From a virus, in IMG/VR virus record IMGVR_UViG_3300036832_000468, positions 1 to 25,486 of that record: DNA of 25,486 bases; one strand, 5' to 3'. Below are positions 14,719 through 23,703 of this stretch, piece after piece. The position numbers and the translations under genes were made by a program. The notes below the pieces were generated by a model. The model saw only the letters and a list, made by a program, of their open reading frames with translations. It was not told where the DNA came from and made no database searches. Numbering within the stretch: position 1 is the first letter of the stretch; each line of letters starts with the position of its first letter.

Positions 14719-15009
14719 ATGTTCACCGACCAGACCCTGACCGCGCTCGGCTGCGAGCTTCGCCCGGACCAGCAGCGCGAGGCGCTGCGCACCTACGTTC
14801 ACCGCTTCACGGGGAACCATCGCCCCAGCTGGTCAACGGCGCCCAGACCGGACGGGAGCGCCTATCCCGTGCAATTCGCCGATGACGCCGATTGGCTCCG
14901 CAATACCCGCTTCGCGGTCACCAAAGACGGCGCCCTCTCGCGTCGCAACCGCTACTGCGCAAGCTCGCCGACGTGGCCACACAATCCCGAGCTTCGGCGC
15001 CCAGCCTGA
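14719..15009 (+). CDS. Early protein of unknown function (96 aa), end of first early operon
   Basis: The ATG at 14719 follows the TAG of the previous gene by two bases. An in-frame extension back to 14626 would overlap it fully and has no better ribosome-binding site. The product begins MFTDQTLTALGCELRPDQQR, then has a basic, Trp-containing middle and a Pro/Ser/Arg-rich end. No domain is recognised. The gene ends just before an operator/promoter region (15014-15049), so it probably closes a transcription unit. Confidence 0.6.
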   Translation: MFTDQTLTALGCELRPDQQREALRTYVHRFTGNHRPSWSTAPRPDGSAYPVQFADDADWLRNTRFAVTKDGALSRRNRYCASSPTWPHNPELRRPA

Positions 15010-15013
15010 AAAA

Positions 15014-15049
15014 TGTGACGTCGGATCACAAAAAGCCGTAGACAGTACG
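15014..15049 (+). promoter_or_regulatory. Operator pair upstream of the DUF932 gene
   Basis: A perfect TGTGA-N7-TCACA dyad occupies 15014-15030. Five bases later CCGTA-N5-TACG (15036-15049) repeats, with one change, the 14-mer seen at 12861-12874. Both motifs recur together at 17174-17231. The 112-bp gap (15010-15121) contains no gene. I could not define a confident -10; the dyads probably cover the promoter of the 15122 gene. Confidence 0.65.
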
Positions 15050-15121
15050 CACAACAGCCTTTACAGATTTGAACTCAGGCATGGCCACGGGGCCAGCCGG
15101 ACCAGCAAAGGGACTAACCCC

Positions 15122-16036
15122 ATGAACGCTTTCGCTCCCGCCCAGTCTTTCCGCCAAGTCCGTTTCGGCTCGGGCTCCACCATCCTGAAAGCCCGCGACG
15201 ATCAGCCGATTTCCCTGGACGACATCGCCGCGCGGGCGCCCGCAGTGTTCGCCACCGAACGCCACGAAAGCCGCTCGGAACGCTATGAATTCATTGACAC
15301 GCGTTCTGTCATGCAAGGCCTGATTGACAACGGCTTTGGCGTCTTTGAGGTGCGCCAAGGCGGATCGCGGATCGAAGGCAAGCGCGAGTTCACAAAGCAT
15401 ATGCTGCGCCTTCGCTACCGTGGCGCGGGCGGGACCGGCGCCCTGATCAACAACCGCGATCAGATCGCCCCTGAGGTCGTTTTGACCAACGCGCATGACG
15501 GAACGGCCAGCTGGCAAATGGGCGCCGGTTGCTTCCGGGTGATCTGCACCAATGGCCTGATCGCGGGCGATATGTTCGATTATGTCCGCATTCGCCACAA
15601 CCGCGCGGGCCCGGAACAAGTCATCGAAGGCGCCTATCGTATCCTTGAGCAATTCCCGCGCATGATTGAGAGCGCTCAGGGAATGGCCGATGTCAGCCTC
15701 GACCGTGGCGAGGCGCTGGTGTTCGCCGAAGCCGCCCGACAGCTGCGCTGGGACGACCCGAACGCGGCGCCCGTCGAAGCCGCCCAGCTGCTCCAGCCGC
15801 GCCGCATCGCCGACCGGGCGCCGGACCTCTGGTCGACCTTCAACGTCGCGCAAGAGCACCTGCTCAGGGGCGGCGACCATTACGTGCACCGCTCCGAGAC
15901 CGGGCGCCGCTCGCATCGCCAGACGGGCGAAATCCGCTCGATTGACGACACCTCAAAGCTCAACCGCGCGCTCTGGACCCTCGCCCAAGGCATGGCCGAT
16001 CTGAAAGCCGGGCGCGAACTCAACGTCGCGGCCTAG
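15122..16036 (+). CDS. DUF932 family phage/plasmid protein
   Basis: The 304-aa product matches DUF932 in overall build. An N-terminal beta-rich part (YEFIDTRSVMQGLIDNGFGV) leads to RFRKHMLRLR-type residues (EFTKHMLRLRYRG), then a conserved core with EVVLTNAHDGTASWQMGAG and FRVICTNGLIAGDMF. The C-terminal signature is WSTFNVAQEHLLRGG with a basic TGRRSHRQTGEIRSIDD. These proteins are common on plasmids and phages of Proteobacteria; their biochemical function is not established to my knowledge. The gene has its own operator/promoter region. The ATG at 15122 is chosen because an upstream frame extension runs through the operators. Confidence 0.9.
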   Translation: MNAFAPAQSFRQVRFGSGSTILKARDDQPISLDDIAARAPAVFATERHESRSERYEFIDTRSVMQGLIDNGFGVFEVRQGGSRIEGKREFTKHMLRLRYRGAGGTGALINNRDQIAPEVVLTNAHDGTASWQMGAGCFRVICTNGLIAGDMFDYVRIRHNRAGPEQVIEGAYRILEQFPRMIESAQGMADVSLDRGEALVFAEAARQLRWDDPNAAPVEAAQLLQPRRIADRAPDLWSTFNVAQEHLLRGGDHYVHRSETGRRSHRQTGEIRSIDDTSKLNRALWTLAQGMADLKAGRELNVAA

Positions 16037-16049
16037 GCCGCGAAAGGCG

Positions 16050-16072
16050 GGCGCCGCTCCTGAGGCGGCGCC
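16050..16072 (+). terminator. GC-rich hairpin after the DUF932 gene
   Basis: GGCGCCGC (16050-16057) pairs perfectly with GCGGCGCC (16065-16072) across a 7-nt loop in the 64-bp gap. It is followed by GCTCCCCTC rather than a T-run, so it may be an attenuator or mRNA-stabilising stem rather than a full terminator. Confidence 0.45.
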
Positions 16073-16100
16073 GCTCCCCTCACACAAGGAATCCCCTCCC

Positions 16101-16367
16101 GTGCGACACTCGACCCTTTCCCCTGACACCGTCATCGGCGCCGCGATCTGGGCGCCCTACCTGATCAACGGCGACGAGTCCGGCCTGGACGCGACAGAGC
16201 TTGAGTTGATCGACTCTTGGCTGATCCGCCGCAACCTCGCCCGCTGTGACTTTGTCGACGTCTCCGAGCCGCATTTCAGCTGGGCTTACGGCTGGTATAC
16301 CGGCGACAGCATTCCGGGCGGGGAAATCGCCGAATACACCTATTACCGCGCCCGGCTGGAGGCCTGA
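16101..16367 (+). CDS. Small conserved phage protein (88 aa; DUF6926-like pattern)
   Basis: It begins at GTG (16101) ten bases after AAGGA. The protein has the sequence pattern APYLINGDESGLDATELELI, then a helix (DSWLIRRNLARCDFVDVSE), then FSWAYGWYTGDSIPGGEIAE followed by YTYYRARLEA. This layout (a [Y/W]LINGD-x-SGL motif, a single-helix middle and a Trp/Tyr-rich beta end) is a recurrent small phage/plasmid protein. The DUF number is from memory and unchecked. No enzymatic residues stand out. Its end carries the shared GGAGGCCTGA junction. Confidence 0.75.
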   Translation: MRHSTLSPDTVIGAAIWAPYLINGDESGLDATELELIDSWLIRRNLARCDFVDVSEPHFSWAYGWYTGDSIPGGEIAEYTYYRARLEA

Positions 16368-16371
16368 CCCG

Positions 16372-16842
16372 ATGTCCGCGCACCTCTGTTCACACAACGA
16401 CATCCGGGCGCTGGTGACCTTCGCCTTTGACCAGTGCAACGCGATGGACCTGATCGGCCTGGACCCGAACGAACTCGGCGCCCTGCTCTGGGCCGAGAAC
16501 GCCCGCAGTCTCCGCACCCGCTATCAGGAGCGCGCCGCCGCGTATTTCCCGCTGTCGCCTATCGTCGGCCAGCTATACGACCACCGCCGAGTCCTGCTCG
16601 ACCGTTTCAGCCTCCTGAAACAGCTTGACCATTACGATTACCAGTCATGCGAGAGCAGCGACTATCAGACCCGTCCAGCCGCCAAGGCGGTAGCGATCAT
16701 GCGCCATTGCGTGCTGTCGGACCTCGGCCTGACTCAGGCTCAGGCCGAAGCCGCCCGCGCCTACAAGGACGCCCCTTGGGGCCTGGACGACGACGACGAC
16801 GAAACCGCAACCGCGCCCGGCGCCTGGAGGGTCGCGCAATGA
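16372..16842 (+). CDS. Conserved phage/plasmid protein of unknown function (156 aa)
   Basis: The start at 16372 lies next to the GGAGG of the previous gene's last codons. The N-terminus (MSAHLCSHNDIRALVTFAFD) and the central LLWAENARSLRTRYQER (about 40-56), followed by LKQLDHYDYQSCESSDYQ (about 81-98), identify a family seen on many phages and plasmids. Its hallmark is LAENxxSxxxRY followed by (D/A)YQSCE. The C-terminus has YKDAPWGLDDDDDE, an acidic tail. No function is known to me. It overlaps the DUF3768 gene by ATGA, a pairing that is itself common. Confidence 0.8.
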   Translation: MSAHLCSHNDIRALVTFAFDQCNAMDLIGLDPNELGALLWAENARSLRTRYQERAAAYFPLSPIVGQLYDHRRVLLDRFSLLKQLDHYDYQSCESSDYQTRPAAKAVAIMRHCVLSDLGLTQAQAEAARAYKDAPWGLDDDDDETATAPGAWRVAQ

Positions 16843-17162
16843 TCGAAACCATCGCCCGGCTGAACGATCTGGCGCGCGGCGCCATGGGCGTCACCTGTCG
16901 ACTCGTCCAGACCTCGGGAATCAACGCTCTGGCGCCCGAAGCCCAGAGCGCGATCCGGGAGGCTGTGGAGCGCTTCGACGCCTTCGGCCCGGACAATGAC
17001 CCTTACGGGGAACGGGATTTCGGGGCCTTCGACCACGACGGACAACGGGTCTTTTGGAAGATCGACTATTACGACCGTAATCTGAAGTTCGCCAGCGACT
17101 GCCCAGCCGATCCGCTGAAAACCGTTCGCGTCCTAACCATCATGCTCGCATCGGAATACTGA
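16839..17162 (+). CDS. DUF3768 family protein
   Basis: The 107-aa product has the family signature almost unaltered. MIETIARLNDLAR opens it, GVTCRLVQTSGINALAPEAQ follows at about 17-36, then FDAFGPDNDPYGERDFGAF at 46-64 and VFWKIDYYDRNLKFAS at 71-86. DUF3768 proteins are small and cytosolic, spread on plasmids, phages and conjugative elements of alphaproteobacteria. Biochemistry is unknown. Its stop is directly before the 17174-17231 operator/promoter, so it closes this sub-operon. Confidence 0.92.
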   Translation: MIETIARLNDLARGAMGVTCRLVQTSGINALAPEAQSAIREAVERFDAFGPDNDPYGERDFGAFDHDGQRVFWKIDYYDRNLKFASDCPADPLKTVRVLTIMLASEY

Positions 17163-17173
17163 CCGGCTGGGAC

Positions 17174-17231
17174 CTTGTGAAATATTTTCACAAGGGACCT
17201 TGCCAAGCCTGCTAGACCGTATACCTTACGG
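17174..17231 (+). promoter_or_regulatory. Operator-promoter with two dyads upstream of the 17274 operon
   Basis: A 21-bp palindrome with 9-bp arms (CTTGTGAAA at 17174-17182, TTTCACAAG at 17186-17194, centre TAT) contains a perfect TGTGA-N7-TCACA. It is followed by TTGCCA (17200-17205), a 16-nt spacer and TACCTT (17222-17227), a plausible sigma70 promoter. CCGTA-N5-TACGG (17217-17231) covers that -10. The first dyad lies just upstream of the -35 and the second overlaps the -10, so activation or repression are both possible. Confidence 0.7.
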
Positions 17232-17273
17232 ATTGAGACGGGGCGCGGCCCCAACCCCAAGGAGACCGACCGA

Positions 17274-17453
17274 ATGTTTCGCCTGACCTTCACCACCGGC
17301 AATGAGGCCTTCGAAGATGAGCCCAACCGCGAAGCCGCGCGCATTCTGCGCGAGATCGCCCGCACCCTGGAGCGCGGCGACTCGTACGGCTACGCCTACG
17401 ATCACAACGGGAACCGCGTCGGCGAGTTCTCCCTGACCCAAACGGAGGCCTGA
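17274..17453 (+). CDS. Small conserved phage/plasmid protein (59 aa)
   Basis: The product begins MFRLTFTTGNEAFEDEPNRE and continues AARILREIARTLERGDSYG, then ends DHNGNRVGEFSLTQTEA. This shape (a strand with TGNxAF, a helix ARILRxIAxxLExG, then a GNxVGxF strand) is a very frequent small protein in phages and plasmids of alphaproteobacteria. Function is unknown. It is the first gene behind the 17174-17231 promoter. AAGGAGA lies about ten bases before the ATG, one of the strongest ribosome-binding sites of the block. It ends in GGAGGCCTGA. Confidence 0.85.
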   Translation: MFRLTFTTGNEAFEDEPNREAARILREIARTLERGDSYGYAYDHNGNRVGEFSLTQTEA

Positions 17454-17456
17454 GCG

Positions 17457-17774
17457 ATGTTCGCCTTTGGACGCCACCCCGGCGAAGACATCAAGACCGC
17501 CGCCGCCTGGGGCGCCCGCGCCATCTTCAAGCACGGCGAAATCGACCTGCTGCACGACCGGATGCAGATGGTTGGCGGCGACGACCAGACCCGCCAGGAA
17601 CTGGCCGCCTGGATCAACAAGACCGGCCTGCCCAAGGTCAAGGCCCTGGTCAGCCGCCTGTACGGCGGCGACTCGGACGTGGTGACCTTTGACGACGGCC
17701 GTTTTCACATCGAAGCGTCGCCGCAGGCCAGCCACGGCTATCTCTACATCGGCGCCTGGAAGCTGGAGCCCTGA
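17457..17774 (+). CDS. Early protein of unknown function (105 aa)
   Basis: The ATG at 17457 is four bases after the previous stop. The product has an N-terminal helical part (EDIKTAAAWGARAIFKHGEI, 10-29), a second helical segment with DQTRQELAAWINKTGLPKVK (about 43-62), and a beta-rich end (VVTFDDGRFHIEASPQASHG, then YLYIGAWKLEP). No family is recognised. The last codons GAG CCC TGA again sit where the next gene's ribosome-binding site must be. Confidence 0.7.
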   Translation: MFAFGRHPGEDIKTAAAWGARAIFKHGEIDLLHDRMQMVGGDDQTRQELAAWINKTGLPKVKALVSRLYGGDSDVVTFDDGRFHIEASPQASHGYLYIGAWKLEP

Positions 17775-17777
17775 CTC

Positions 17778-18149
17778 ATGTATCTCGACCTCCGCAACCC
17801 CGGCGCCTTCGCCGAGCACGCCGACAAGGAAGGCCTCGCCACCGCCCAGCGCGTGCGCCTGGAGCAGCGGCTGGCGCGCCGTCTGGTCAAGCGCCTCTTG
17901 GCCGCTGGCCTCGCCCTCTCGATCTACGACGGCGAAGAATGGGCCCTCACCCGCTCCCGCGATCTGGACGCGATCTGGGGCGCCCTGGGCGAGACCGACA
18001 GCGACCTGATCCGGGCCTATGACAGCCAAGGCGAGCACGTCGGATTCGTCACCCTGATCTGGGGCAACGGCGAGGACCTGCTCAGCGACTGGACGGACGG
18101 CGGCGTGGTCGACGGGATCGCCCGTGATCTGGTCGGCCTGGAGGCTTGA
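17778..18149 (+). CDS. Early protein of unknown function (123 aa)
   Basis: The N-terminal half is a basic helical segment (AQRVRLEQRLARRLVKRLLA, about 23-42). The second half is beta-rich and acidic (LSIYDGEEWALTRSRDLDAI; GFVTLIWGNGEDLLSDWTDG; ending ARDLVGLEA). The basic helix could contact nucleic acid, but no defined DNA-binding fold is visible. The gene lies between coupled neighbours and ends in GGAGGCTTGA. Confidence 0.7.
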   Translation: MYLDLRNPGAFAEHADKEGLATAQRVRLEQRLARRLVKRLLAAGLALSIYDGEEWALTRSRDLDAIWGALGETDSDLIRAYDSQGEHVGFVTLIWGNGEDLLSDWTDGGVVDGIARDLVGLEA

Positions 18150-18152
18150 GCC

Positions 18153-18392
18153 ATGAACCACCGACGCCGCGCGAAGCTGAGCCGCCTGATGGTCAAGATC
18201 GACGCGCTCATGCCGCCCCTGGGCCGCCTGCGCGAGGATGTGGACGCGGTCCTTACAGCCGAGTTCGAGGACCGCCAGAGGTCTAGCGATGACGCCGTAG
18301 ACCAGCTGCAGGCCGCTTGCCAAGCCATGATCGAAGCCGAGCGCAAGCTGGCCTCAGCCGTGCTCGCCCTGGACAACATTGAGGAGCCCTGA
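18153..18392 (+). CDS. Early helical protein of unknown function (79 aa)
   Basis: The sequence is predicted almost entirely helical: MNHRRRAKLSRLMVKIDALM, then RLREDVDAVLTAEFEDRQRS and VDQLQAACQAMIEAERKLAS, ending DNIEEP. A basic start followed by acidic heptad-like repeats suggests a small coiled-coil dimer. No domain is recognised. Its last codons GAG GAG CCC TGA supply the ribosome-binding site for the next gene. Confidence 0.68.
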   Translation: MNHRRRAKLSRLMVKIDALMPPLGRLREDVDAVLTAEFEDRQRSSDDAVDQLQAACQAMIEAERKLASAVLALDNIEEP

Positions 18393-18394
18393 CC

Positions 18395-18658
18395 ATGCAC
18401 CCCGCCTACAAAGGCCCGTACACCGTCGCCCTGATGGCCACCGGCCAGGGCTCGGCCCAGCCGTTCCGCCACACGGACGGCGCCATGATCATCCTCGGCA
18501 ATGACGCCGAGGGCGAGAGCGCCCCGGTGCTGCACATCCCCATGCGCACCCGGCCCAAGCGGGGCGAGGCCTGGAAGACCAGCGACCCGGATCAGGAGGC
18601 TTTCGCCCGCGCCCTGGTCAAGGCCCTCAACGCCTACAGCGACGTGGAGGCCGTCTAG
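18395..18658 (+). CDS. Early protein of unknown function (87 aa), directly before parS
   Basis: MHPAYKGPYTVALMATGQGS opens a beta-rich N-terminus, followed by a beta hairpin (AMIILGNDAEGESAPVLHIP) and a C-terminal helix (DQEAFARALVKALNAYSDVE). It resembles small single-domain phage accessory proteins, but I cannot name a family. It is the last gene before the intergenic parS palindrome and may end the 17274 operon. Confidence 0.7.
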   Translation: MHPAYKGPYTVALMATGQGSAQPFRHTDGAMIILGNDAEGESAPVLHIPMRTRPKRGEAWKTSDPDQEAFARALVKALNAYSDVEAV

Positions 18659-18671
18659 GCCGCCCGTTCCA

Positions 18672-18689
18672 ATGTTTCACGTGAAACAT
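18672..18689. other. parS centromere-like site (perfect 18-bp palindrome)
   Basis: The sequence ATGTTTCACGTGAAACAT is a perfect palindrome and contains TGTTTCACGTGAAACA, the consensus bacterial chromosomal parS element bound by ParB/Spo0J, used also in Caulobacter. It sits alone in the 58-bp gap between 18658 and 18717 and is not part of any gene. I saw no second copy in this window. A ParB-type HTH protein is not encoded here, so host ParB is the probable ligand; use as a phage operator is an alternative. Confidence 0.88.
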
Positions 18690-18716
18690 CAGCACAAACG
18701 ATAGGACCCTAACGAC

Positions 18717-19100
18717 ATGCTCAAGCTGAGCCGCAAGGACCTCAACAAGCTCGCCGAACTTGGCGGGGACGCTAACGAACTGTGGGGCGAACTGGACACC
18801 CTGCTCGCCAAATTCGGCGACGAACTCGATGCGCTGCTGGAGAAGCTGCGCGAGGTCCAGACCGAGGCGGCTGGGATAATGGACGACGCCGCCAACGAGG
18901 CCAAGTCCTACTACGAGGAAAAATCCGAGACGTGGCAGGAAGGCGAGCGCGGCGGCCGGTACGCCGAATGGAAGGACCGCCTGCGCGAGATCGCCGACGC
19001 CATCAACGAGGATATCGAGCCGCCTGAGGTCGCAATGCCAGACCGTCCCGACTGGATCGGCGACTTGGAAGACCCCGACTTTTCCGAGTGCGAGTTCTAG
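18717..19100 (+). CDS. Acidic coiled-coil protein of unknown function (127 aa)
   Basis: The first gene after the parS palindrome. After a basic start (MLKLSRKDLNKLAELGGDAN) residues 20-85 form acidic helix with heptad-like spacing (ELDTLLAKFGDELDALLEKL), then GRYAEWKDRLREIADAINED and a strongly acidic tail ending DFSECEF. The total charge is very negative, like DNA-mimic or enzyme-inhibitor proteins of phages, though no specific family is recognised. AGGA about ten bases upstream supports the ATG. The parS site 28 bp upstream could affect its expression. Confidence 0.75.
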   Translation: MLKLSRKDLNKLAELGGDANELWGELDTLLAKFGDELDALLEKLREVQTEAAGIMDDAANEAKSYYEEKSETWQEGERGGRYAEWKDRLREIADAINEDIEPPEVAMPDRPDWIGDLEDPDFSECEF

Positions 19101-19102
19101 CC

Positions 19103-19471
19103 ATGACCTTCAAGAGCCCGACGCAACCGCTGTGCCGCTGGTGCGGCAAGCCGATCCCGAAATGGACCCGCAACCTGTACTTTGGCCAGTCGCCGCGCAG
19201 CGACGCCTTTTCCCGGTCGTTCGCCGAGAAGCCTGCGAACCGCGAAGACGCGCAGCGGCTGGTCAACGAGAAGATCGTTTCCGTGCGCTACTGGGACACG
19301 CCAGACGAACCCCGACACGTCCACATGGCCAGCAGCTGGGACGGCGAGAGCTACACCGACCAGTTTTTTCACAGCGCCGATTGCGCCCGCGCCATGGGCT
19401 ACGCCGCCGCGCACAACGGCTGGACCGCAGAGGCCTATGACACCGCCACCGCCGCCCGGAGGACCAAATGA
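19103..19471 (+). CDS. Putative zinc-binding protein (122 aa)
   Basis: Residues 11-14 form a Cys-x2-Cys knuckle (CRWCGKPI), and a second half-site lies at FFHSADCARAMGYAA with H90 and C94. Such a C-x2-C / H-x3-C pair, followed by an amphipathic helix, is typical of single treble-clef or FCS-type zinc fingers common in phages. The segment between is polar (KIVSVRYWDTPDEPRHVHMA). DNA, RNA or protein binding are all possible. The ATG at 19103 is preferred to an upstream GTG inside the previous gene. It overlaps the microprotein downstream by ATGA. Confidence 0.72.
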   Translation: MTFKSPTQPLCRWCGKPIPKWTRNLYFGQSPRSDAFSRSFAEKPANREDAQRLVNEKIVSVRYWDTPDEPRHVHMASSWDGESYTDQFFHSADCARAMGYAAAHNGWTAEAYDTATAARRTK

Positions 19472-19524
19472 CCCTTTTCATCTGCTTCATCGTCGGGCTA
19501 CTGCTCGGCAAAGGACACGACTAG
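19468..19524 (+). CDS. 18-aa single-helix membrane microprotein candidate
   Basis: The reading frame encodes MTLFICFIVGLLLGKGHD. It has a textbook GGAGG seven bases before the ATG, overlaps the previous stop by ATGA, and its TAG is followed immediately by the ATG of the next gene. Such perfect packing makes translation probable. The hydrophobic core with a small-residue VGLLLG spacing could insert in the membrane. The function is unknown. Confidence 0.55.
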   Translation: MTLFICFIVGLLLGKGHD

Positions 19525-19770
19525 ATGACGCCCGCTGAACTCACCGCCGCCCTTGACGAACTGGGCCACCGCTGGGGCCTGGGCCGCGCCCTGCGGCCAT
19601 CCGAGCTTGGCCGCGTCGTGCGCCTGCCCGGCAAGGACCCCGGCCAGTCCGTCCGCGACTACGAAAGCGGCGAAACCCGCATCCCTGGTCCGTTCTCGGT
19701 CGCCGTCGAACTGCTGCTGGCGGGCGGGTTGCCGCCCGATGGTTTGGCCGTGCTGCGCAAGGCCGCCTGA
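19525..19770 (+). CDS. HTH (XRE-like) protein (81 aa)
   Basis: Residues 25-60 read PSELGRVVRLPGKDPGQSVR followed by DYESGETRIPGPFSVAVELL. The second block is the hallmark of degenerate XRE-type helix-turn-helix proteins of the form (V/L)RxWExGxxxIPGPVAVAxELL. N-terminal MTPAELTAALDELGHRWGLG is the first helix pair. It likely binds DNA as a dimer. It is the last gene before the strong terminator at 19777-19823. A direct role in controlling the early block is possible but not shown. Confidence 0.72.
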   Translation: MTPAELTAALDELGHRWGLGRALRPSELGRVVRLPGKDPGQSVRDYESGETRIPGPFSVAVELLLAGGLPPDGLAVLRKAA

Positions 19771-21296: not shown

Positions 21297-21946
21297 GGCT
21301 CCGACTCCTCTGGCGGGTCCTTGGGCGCCTCCTCCATCTGGGCCAGGGCGCGGCGTCGCTGTTCCGGGGTCATCCGATAGACGCCGTCCCGGTCGATGTA
21401 GGCGCCCGACGAGAGCGTCAGGCGGCCAAGCCCCTCAGGGTTGGCCGGGCCGCCTGACGCGGGGGGGCTATAGGGGGGATTCTTTGGTAATGGGAATGGT
21501 ACCCGCGCGCGAGGCTTAACACCCCCCTTAACCCGCCCATTATCCTGGGGGTTAACCTGGCTAGAATTTCCTGTGTCTTTTCCGTTGGTTGCGAGAAGCG
21601 CGGGGTTGCCTCCACGCTTGCCATTTTCTCTGCATTTTTGGCGCAAATTTTCGTCCCGAACGATGCGCCGCGAAAACACGCGGCCCTTACGGTCGCGGCT
21701 GAAAACGCCTCTACGCTCAAGCTCCGCGAACAACGGCTCGACCTCGTCTTGATCCTTGCCGATGAGCCGCGCGAGTTCTGGCGCCGTGATCGGCTCGCCC
21801 TTCACGGCCAAGTAGCCGGGCCGGTCGGCCAGGGCCATGACCGTCAGCATCCGCATCCACAGGCCCTGAGCCGCCAGCGAACACGTCCTCAGGCCTAGGT
21901 CGTTGCCATAGTCGTTCCAGAAAAAGCGGGCGTAGGGGTTGCTCAT
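21293..21946 (-). CDS. Phage replication protein with winged-helix N-terminus (DUF1376-like)
   Basis: This is a 217-aa protein. Residues 1-95 (YARFFWNDYGNDLGLRTCSL; AAQGLWMRMLTVMALADRPG; ITAPELARLIGKDQDEVEPL; RRGVFSRDRKGRVFSRRIVR) match the DUF1376/primosomal type of N-terminal winged helix found in phage replisome organisers, with the W...L..L.....AL pattern and a predicted wing. The remainder is basic and Pro/Asn-rich with NGKRGGNPALLATNGKD, a linker for a partner-binding site. Such proteins recruit host DnaB helicase or its loader to a phage origin. No helicase-loader ATPase is present here. Confidence 0.72.
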   Translation of the reverse strand: MSNPYARFFWNDYGNDLGLRTCSLAAQGLWMRMLTVMALADRPGYLAVKGEPITAPELARLIGKDQDEVEPLFAELERRGVFSRDRKGRVFSRRIVRDENLRQKCRENGKRGGNPALLATNGKDTGNSSQVNPQDNGRVKGGVKPRARVPFPLPKNPPYSPPASGGPANPEGLGRLTLSSGAYIDRDGVYRMTPEQRRRALAQMEEAPKDPPEESEP

Positions 21947-22212
21947 GACGCGGCCCGCTCCCGCGCCCGCTTGACGCCATAGGACACCGTCGAGTGGTCG
22001 CGCCCGGACATGAACCGGCCGATCTGGGAGAGGCTATAACCGGCGTCCCTCATCGCCGCCATGGCCACCTGCCGGGGCCAGGAGTAGACCCGCTCCCGGC
22101 CGCCCCGCCTGAGGTCTGACAAGGTCAGGTCGTGCTCGGCGGCGACCCGCTCGGCGATGGCGGCCATGCTCGACCGCCCCAGCCTGATCCAGTCCCTTTG
22201 CACGCCGGGCAT
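21943..22212 (-). CDS. Stand-alone DnaA domain IV protein
   Basis: The 89-aa product corresponds to the C-terminal DNA-binding domain of DnaA only. An N-terminal helix (SSMAAIAERVAAEHDLTLSD) is followed by the RQVAM motif (47-51) and SLSQIGRFMSGRDHSTVSYG, whose RDHSTV (71-76) is the DnaA-box recognition signature. The AAA+ motor (domain III) and DnaB-binding domain I are absent. It may bind DnaA boxes on phage or host origin, mark a phage origin for the co-encoded winged-helix protein, or block host initiation. It overlaps the next gene by ATGA and follows the GcrA-like gene by one base. Confidence 0.85.
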   Translation of the reverse strand: MPGVQRDWIRLGRSSMAAIAERVAAEHDLTLSDLRRGGRERVYSWPRQVAMAAMRDAGYSLSQIGRFMSGRDHSTVSYGVKRARERAAS

Positions 22213-22213
22213 G

Positions 22214-22780
22214 TCACGCGACCAGCGGCGGGTGCATCACGGCGTAGTGGCCAGGGCAGTAGGCGAACCCTCCAGTCGGGTTGCAACATGACAGAGTGTC
22301 GGCCCCGTCCGGCTTGACCGGATAGGGACATTCCCGAGGGCCGCGCTCGGTCCATGGCTTGGCGTTGGGCGAGGCCACCGGGCCGGGGCCGGGCTTGGGC
22401 GGCCGGGGCCGGGGGACCTGCTGCTGTGGAACCCGGACCACGGGGGCCCTGGGCGCGCCCTGGTTCTGCCAGCCCAGCCGGGCGACCCGGCCGATCACGG
22501 CGTTGCGCGAGCAGCCCAGCTGCTCGCCGATGGCGGTGTAGGTCAGGCCGTCCCGTTTCCACAGCCGCTCCAGCAGGTCATCGCGCTGGGGCGTCCAGGC
22601 GGGGCGATGGCGCGGGCTTTGCCAGCCCATCCGCCAGACCTGCCCCATCACCGCGCTTTCGGTGCGGTCCAGGCGCAGGGCGATGGCGTGGTAGTCAAGC
22701 TGTTCGACGTTCCACAGCTGATTTAGGAGGGCCTTCGCCTCGGCCGTCCATGGCCGAGATTGAACAGTGGTTCGCTGCAT
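22214..22780 (-). CDS. GcrA-family cell-cycle regulator with duplicated HTH
   Basis: The 188-aa protein has two successive GcrA-type HTH units: residues 10-53 (WTAEAKALLNQLWNVEQLDY...MGQVWRMGWQ) and 61-105 (WTPQRDDLLERLWKRDGLTY...AVIGRVARLGWQ). A Pro-rich linker (106-140) precedes the GcrA C-terminal domain (about 149-184): RECPYPV, CCNPTGGFAYC and PGHYAVMHPP with C151, C165/C166, C175 and H178 in family positions. Chromosomal GcrA binds methylated GANTC through one HTH and sigma70 domain 2 through its C-terminus. The duplication is unusual and may allow binding to a pair of sites. Gene order (ParB fold, GcrA, DnaA domain IV) is notable. Confidence 0.9.
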   Translation of the reverse strand: MQRTTVQSRPWTAEAKALLNQLWNVEQLDYHAIALRLDRTESAVMGQVWRMGWQSPRHRPAWTPQRDDLLERLWKRDGLTYTAIGEQLGCSRNAVIGRVARLGWQNQGAPRAPVVRVPQQQVPRPRPPKPGPGPVASPNAKPWTERGPRECPYPVKPDGADTLSCCNPTGGFAYCPGHYAVMHPPLVA

Positions 22781-22797: not shown

Positions 22798-23703
22798 TCA
22801 GCCTTCGGGTTTGGGGAATTCCACGCCCTGCTTGGCGCGCCAGGGCTTGAAGGTGCGCCGCCCGTCGATCCAGGCGTTGTAGGCGCGGATGAAATTAGCG
22901 GCGGTCTCGGGTCCGCTCAGCCTGACCTGCCGGGCATAGTGCTCGATGTAGAGCGTGCGCAGCTTGGCCACCGGATCGGCGGCGTTCTCGATGCCGATCC
23001 CGGACACCGCGACCTCGTAGAACGCATGGGCCTTGGCCTCGTCGTGCTGCAGGCAAAGGTAGTAGGCGGCCCCGATGGACCCGACCGAGGTCTGGAACAG
23101 GCCGTTGAGCCGCCACGCCTCGCGTAGGGAAGGCTCGCGCACGCCGGGGTGCTTCTCCAGCGTCGCCAGCAGTTCATCGGTCGACGGGCGGGCGTTGATG
23201 CCAGCGGCGTGGTCGATCTGGAACAGCAGCCGCAGGGCGGTTGCGAGGTTGGTGGTGTTCTTCTCGCCCTGCATCATCAGCACGTGCGCGGCCGAGCGGG
23301 CGATGCCCTGGTCGATGGTGTGGCGGGTCTCGCGGTCGACGCCGAACACCAACAGCATCGGCACCGTGCAGCCTGACTTGATCACAGCATACAGGCGATG
23401 TTGGCCGTCGTTGAGTTCACCCGTGGCCGCGATGACGATGGTCTCGCCGTTGATCACCCACTCACCGCGCAGCATAGCGTCCCTATAGGACGAAGAAGAC
23501 CGCGCGGAATTGCCCATGATGACGGCGCGGTTGCCTTCGTTGCGCTCCATCAGACAGGCCGCCATCGACGGCGATACATCAGCCTGCACCATGAAGATTT
23601 CGGTTTGACCTCGCTTGATCCAGGCGTGTACCTTTTCCAGATCACTCATCCGCGTGTTGACGGTCAAGTCGTCCTGGGCGCGGGCGTGAATCGTCATATC
23701 CAT
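22798..23703 (-). CDS. ParB/Srx-fold protein with DGQHR motif
   Basis: The 301-aa product has a ParB/sulfiredoxin-like N-terminal domain. The GELNDGQHRLYA motif (95-106) corresponds to the GERRxxA nucleotide-binding motif of ParB, preceded by an EWVINGETIVIA strand pair and followed by TVPMLLVFGVDRETRHTIDQ. The C-terminal 160 residues are helical (ATALRLLFQIDHAAGINARP; EAKAHAFYEVAVSGIG) with no visible ParB-type HTH. ParB-fold proteins bind CTP or cut DNA. Phage DGQHR proteins of this kind are common but their role is unclear. The ATG at 23703 is chosen over upstream codons because the upstream extension runs through the promoter region. Confidence 0.8.
   Translation of the reverse strand: MDMTIHARAQDDLTVNTRMSDLEKVHAWIKRGQTEIFMVQADVSPSMAACLMERNEGNRAVIMGNSARSSSSYRDAMLRGEWVINGETIVIAATGELNDGQHRLYAVIKSGCTVPMLLVFGVDRETRHTIDQGIARSAAHVLMMQGEKNTTNLATALRLLFQIDHAAGINARPSTDELLATLEKHPGVREPSLREAWRLNGLFQTSVGSIGAAYYLCLQHDEAKAHAFYEVAVSGIGIENAADPVAKLRTLYIEHYARQVRLSGPETAANFIRAYNAWIDGRRTFKPWRAKQGVEFPKPEG

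Follow-up and report, generated by a model that had tools for sequence, protein, structure and literature searches.

The DNA analysed here, called the window throughout, is a virus contig of 25,486 bases from IMG/VR, which is classed as "linear" and may therefore be a fragment. The minus strand of the window encodes a portal (P22-like), a small terminase (Sf6-like) and a large terminase, along with a protein that has a GH16 domain. The small plus-strand genes of this GC-rich phage form an early-gene block, within which a palindromic site resembling a bacterial centromere is located (Table 1). In the block that contains the site (14963-19770) the genes mostly lie end to end, leaving three gaps longer than 10 bp.

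The site is an 18-bp double-stranded palindrome, ATGTTTCACGTGAAACAT, whose 16-bp core TGTTTCACGTGAAACA (18673-18688) agrees with the chromosomal parS consensus with 0 mismatches. In a review, the same 16-mer is listed as parS for Hyphomonas neptunium, an alphaproteobacterium, together with a compatible consensus for Caulobacter crescentus (PMC7022226). The core is the sole match to the consensus in the window, even if up to 3 mismatches are allowed (expected, 0.04; 4 of 100 shuffles contained one), and base-frequency arithmetic at approximately 66% GC predicts about 1e-6 exact 16-mers per window. An earlier note on this DNA had described a palindrome with an exact parS 16-mer, situated between genes and not expected by chance in 25 kb, and the analysis bears out all three statements: the preceding gene ends ahead of the site, and the following gene begins after it. 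One reading frame of the site translates as VSRET. A stem-loop or terminator was also considered for the palindrome and rejected, as it does not fold more stably than shuffled sequences (z -0.42) and no terminator-like site, i.e., a GC-rich stem with a T tract and a stable fold, is present at this position. DnaA boxes were not found close to parS in the window.

Table 1. Features of the window at and around the parS site; L122 is the closest relative found.
Feature	Position	Strand	Remarks
79-aa phrog_4068-like protein	18153..18392	+	L122 homologue likewise upstream of the L122 parS
87-aa gene, function unassigned	18395..18658	+	Ends just ahead of parS; L122 homologue lies one gene downstream of the L122 parS
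58-bp intergenic gap containing parS	18659..18716	.	Among the three gaps >10 bp in block 14963-19770
Host-type parS, ATGTTTCACGTGAAACAT	18672..18689	.	Exact match; same 18-mer in L122
127-aa acidic coiled-coil-like protein	18717..19100	+	Starts 27 bp past parS; weak phrog_4068 match
81-aa protein	19525..19770	+	Conserved in L122 (62%); less closely in about 40 contigs without parS
89-aa protein, essentially a stand-alone DnaA domain IV	21943..22212	-	PF08299, E 1.3e-16; weaker homologues in several relatives
GcrA-like protein (alphaproteobacterial cell-cycle regulator family)	22214..22780	-	PF07750; homologues in several relatives
phrog_5931 protein with DGQHRL motif	22801..23703	-	Some INPHARED relatives annotated "ParB-like nuclease domain protein"

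Neither a canonical ParB (TIGR00180, PF02195) nor a ParA (PF13614) is matched in the window or in L122, both of which may be incomplete contigs. The earlier claim that no ParB with a helix-turn-helix is encoded nearby thus holds for the whole of the possibly partial window, and the hallmarks of a phage-encoded ParABS system (an own ParB with a ParB N domain and a helix-turn-helix, and an own ParA ATPase) are not found there. Among 50 parS-bearing IMG/VR contigs, none encodes a ParB above the TIGR00180 cut-off, and weak matches occur in five. Since a perfect parS is carried without its reader protein, the phage probably borrows that protein from the host. The phrog_5931 protein was considered as a candidate reader of parS; Pfam assigns no ParB domain to this protein or to two relatives, a PDB relative was not found, and its predicted structure (mean pLDDT 40.5) is of insufficient quality to be informative. 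Contig L064 encodes a distant homologue of this protein at a distance of approximately 1.4 kb from two paired parS sites.

The host of the phage is probably an alphaproteobacterium, as judged from the GcrA-like gene and the depletion of the GANTC motif. GANTC occurs at 0.45 of expectation in the window. The motif is depleted to varying degrees in the relatives, reaching 0.03-0.1 of expectation in several of them (examined: L144, L247, L147 and L151), and its count is zero in some unrelated parS-bearing contigs (among L028, L058, L074, L100 and L107). This depletion suggests avoidance of CcrM-type methylation or of a GANTC restriction enzyme. In the window phage, parS may accompany other pieces of the host cell cycle machinery, namely the GcrA-like regulator and the stand-alone DnaA domain IV, the latter of which could act on DnaA boxes or on the host origin. 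Among species genomes, relatives of the 19525-19770 gene were found in one Rhizobium MAG and in one MAG named only Proteobacteria. The Rhizobium MAG, which is a carrier of a related gene rather than an identified host, harbours exact parS 16-mers at distances of 1.5-3.5 kb from a strong match to parB. An integrase was not found in the window, itself possibly a fragment, and some relatives possess one.

The large terminase of L122 is 87% identical to that of the window at the protein level, and the structural genes are 76-84% identical at the DNA level. L122 carries the identical parS (18/18 bp) in the corresponding early block, in the order 188-aa gene, parS, 80-aa coiled-coil/membrane-like gene and homologue of the window gene 18395-18658. 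Judging from this gene order, parS is kept in the same block though the genes directly beside it are different. Among the exact strings that the two early blocks have in common, the 18-mer is the longest and exceeds every coding match; of the next 26 bases beside it only about half agree, the neighbouring genes share only about 55% protein identity, and the other intergenic DNA has mostly changed. A query combining parS with its downstream GCAC context retrieved L122 again, together with three contigs without a match to the window proteins. In a separate 111-bp gap of the window, a 13-bp GC palindrome-like string, GGGGCGCGGCCCC, is located at 17240-17252, and L122 has the same string before the homologous gene.

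Beyond L122, parS is absent from 49 other contigs with a related TerL and from 41 contigs that encode a homologue of protein 19525-19770, with 2 and 3 mismatches allowed across the two sets of relatives. With one close relative at hand, this suggests that the site belongs to a small lineage, which either gained it recently or whose relatives lost it repeatedly. The conservation that the earlier note had proposed as a check is thus partial, with the site kept in L122 between changed flanks and missing from the more distant relatives searched. Proteins 18717-19100 and 19103-19471 yielded no close relatives in IMG/VR, a single 64-bp match was the only DNA relationship to named phages, and TerL relatives were not found in species genomes. 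The absence of parS from more distant relatives would fit a neutral passenger, i.e., a parS that arrived with host DNA and is functionless, and so would matches in other phages that lie inside coding sequence (such as in L028) and may be coincidental. Yet, all 18 bp are preserved in L122 despite the divergence of the neighbouring proteins and intergenic DNA, and parS is generally enriched in phages compared to control palindromes, which makes neutral hitch-hiking quite improbable. From the comparison with one close relative, the site may be retained under selection.

Exact parS sites are strongly enriched in phages compared to palindromes of the same composition. The 17/18-mer is present in 198 of 50,697 INPHARED records, whereas two control palindromes with the same base composition, one of which retains the TTCACGTGAA core, are each found in 0 records. 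In IMG/VR, the 16-mer occurs in at least 120 stretches, compared to five for the control palindrome retaining the TTCACGTGAA core. These counts do not represent independent events, since the records are redundant and include related phages and RefSeq duplicates. Carriers comprise phages of Microbacterium, Gordonia, Arthrobacter, Bacillus, Lactobacillus, Enterococcus, Butyrivibrio, Roseobacter/Ruegeria and Spiroplasma, as well as microviruses, filamentous "bajarodino" viruses and Lactobacillus Herelleviridae. The ten commonest names among the INPHARED carriers do not include Escherichia, Salmonella or Klebsiella. Enterobacteria are not known to possess a host ParB, and hence the position of these genera outside the ten commonest names is as expected if the site needs host ParB.

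The most striking carriers in this analysis are the filamentous bajarodino viruses 3 and 7 (L260 and L261), which contain six and five exact parS sites, respectively, in approximately 6 kb, some of them between and some inside genes. The Gordonia phages Woes and PatrickStar both harbour parS, and their flanking DNA is unalignable. In these two phages (L251:2581 and 3002; L258:3002) the parS core centres longer palindromes, the arms of which vary by site. Clusters of three to five exact parS sites within about 1 kb are seen in the IMG/VR contigs L017, L044 and L053; these could represent either phage centromere arrays or misassigned chromosomal origin DNA. Some matches fall within coding sequence: in L028 the site forms VSRET codons within a helix-turn-helix gene, a type of protein in which these residues would be plausible anyway, and in Microbacterium phage Kozie it lies near the end of a hypothetical protein. 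As such matches may be coincidental, the raw counts overstate the number of functional sites, and the general claim is best based on the intergenic and multi-copy cases. Of 146 IMG/VR parS sites, 67 lie outside ORFs, a figure not used as proof, given that the greedy ORF caller is unreliable for GC-rich contigs.

The location of parS upstream of a gene, in a window that encodes several helix-turn-helix proteins, would also be compatible with an operator that is read by a transcription factor of the phage or of the host and that resembles parS by convergence. However, the 17/18-mer is shared by phages of Actinobacteria, Firmicutes and Alphaproteobacteria, by filamentous phages and by microviruses, which have no regulator in common. 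Moreover, contigs with homologues of the 19525-19770 gene lack the site, and the window has one copy only. A convergent operator is accordingly very unlikely. Alternatively, host ParB might load at parS, spread over the early block and repress or time its transcription. The site lies ahead of a start codon in both phages (27 bp in the window and about 30 bp in L122), it is preceded by a promoter-like TATACT in L122, and a precedent exists in the ParB-family protein KorB, which acts over long distances on plasmid RK2 (PMC11790492). Still, regulatory silencing appears rather unlikely, because the genes downstream of parS differ between the window and L122, a sigma-70-type promoter was not found near parS in the window, and the intragenic and dispersed sites in other phages are unlike an operator. 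The more specific suggestion of the earlier note, that parS regulates the acidic gene directly downstream (18717-19100), is weakened by the presence of another gene at that place in L122, where a homologue of the acidic protein was not found. Dispersed multi-copy parS sites, some of them intragenic, fit ParB recruitment better than a promoter operator.

The notion of a host-type parS in a phage without its own ParABS is well supported as far as the site itself is concerned, which is exact, kept in L122, enriched in phages and found near parB in a Rhizobium MAG. With a confidence close to even, we infer from these sequence features that the palindrome is a genuine cis-only parS, which would load host ParB and thereby position or partition the phage DNA. 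A small lineage of podovirus-like phages of alphaproteobacteria, which have no ParABS as far as the contigs reach, would have gained the site and retained it, and the chromosomal ParB of the host would recognise it after infection. Upon binding to parS, Caulobacter ParB closes into a CTP clamp that slides on the DNA (PMC7053999), which strongly suggests that a phage with an exact host site should be coated by ParB. Thus, ParB would form a CTP-dependent sliding clamp on the phage genome and extend to neighbouring DNA, and host ParA (possibly also SMC) would handle the coated genome like a chromosome origin region. As an outcome, the phage DNA might adopt a defined position in the cell and, should it persist or replicate extrachromosomally, be distributed to both daughters.

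Positioning or partition by host ParA is favoured by the cis-only behaviour of the site, by the fact that most carriers supply no ParB, and by the dispersed multi-copy sites in filamentous phages, which coexist with their host. Counted against partition are the single parS in the window, distant relatives that manage without parS despite a similar GANTC depletion, and the dependence of the retention argument on a single comparison with one close relative. Furthermore, some parS-bearing phages, e.g., the Herelleviridae, are thought to be strictly lytic, and partition is less obviously useful there.

The occurrence of parS in phages regarded as lytic, such as the Lactobacillus Herelleviridae, is in keeping with a ParB decoy, where many lytic phage copies carrying parS draw ParB away from the centromere and stall host segregation and division to the benefit of the phage. 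A ParB-type site without an encoded ParB would suit this role, and Caulobacter ParB is listed as essential, its depletion causing division defects (PMC7022226); in this bacterium ParB is also connected with where the division site is placed. A decoy is expected to comprise several sites, however, and the window has one. Filamentous phages are not known to kill their host, and the five to six sites in their genomes speak against a purely host-damaging role there. Overall, we consider a decoy unlikely, though it is, like silencing, a live rival, and favour the recruitment of host ParB for positioning or partition.

Chromosomal parS sites and phage-encoded ParABS systems are already known. The window site resembles chromosomal parS of ParABS systems in its identical 16 bp, its double-stranded palindrome and its intergenic location, but it differs in that it resides in a virus rather than near an origin, is single and has no adjoining parAB found. 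The extrachromosomal prophages of the mycobacteriophages RedRock and Miko likewise bear a centromere-like site on a phage genome; in contrast to the window, where the site has the host sequence and canonical ParA and ParB were not found, they carry a phage-borne ParABS, encode both ParA and ParB themselves, and have a parS made up of short direct-repeat arrays read by the phage ParB (PMC7157519). A ParB-family clamp that loads at a palindrome and can act at a distance is also the basis of KorB/OB silencing on plasmid RK2, yet KorB is encoded by the plasmid and recognises another operator, whereas the reader here would be host ParB (PMC11790492).

In a further parallel, some phages use the host Xer recombinases at dif-like sites. 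These phages, too, carry only the cis site and borrow a chromosome-maintenance protein of the host, but they employ other machinery, and their purpose is integration rather than segregation. We found no description of host-type parS in phages without ParAB among openly licensed papers, and an earlier description elsewhere is possible; nor did we find host-type phage parS in a broad 2025 survey of ParB-fold proteins (PMC12704722). We tentatively propose, with somewhat less than even confidence, that ParB-less host-type parS constitutes a widespread, previously undescribed cis module, by which lytic, temperate and filamentous phages may enlist host ParB and ParA (and SMC) for positioning and inheritance.

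If host ParB indeed loads on phage DNA, a phage could achieve positioning and inheritance through the host centromere without partition genes of its own. ParB/parS would then represent an interface between phage and host and allow a direct test of where phage DNA is located in the cell. If true, this would also account for the strong and apparently unreported enrichment of exact parS in phage genomes.
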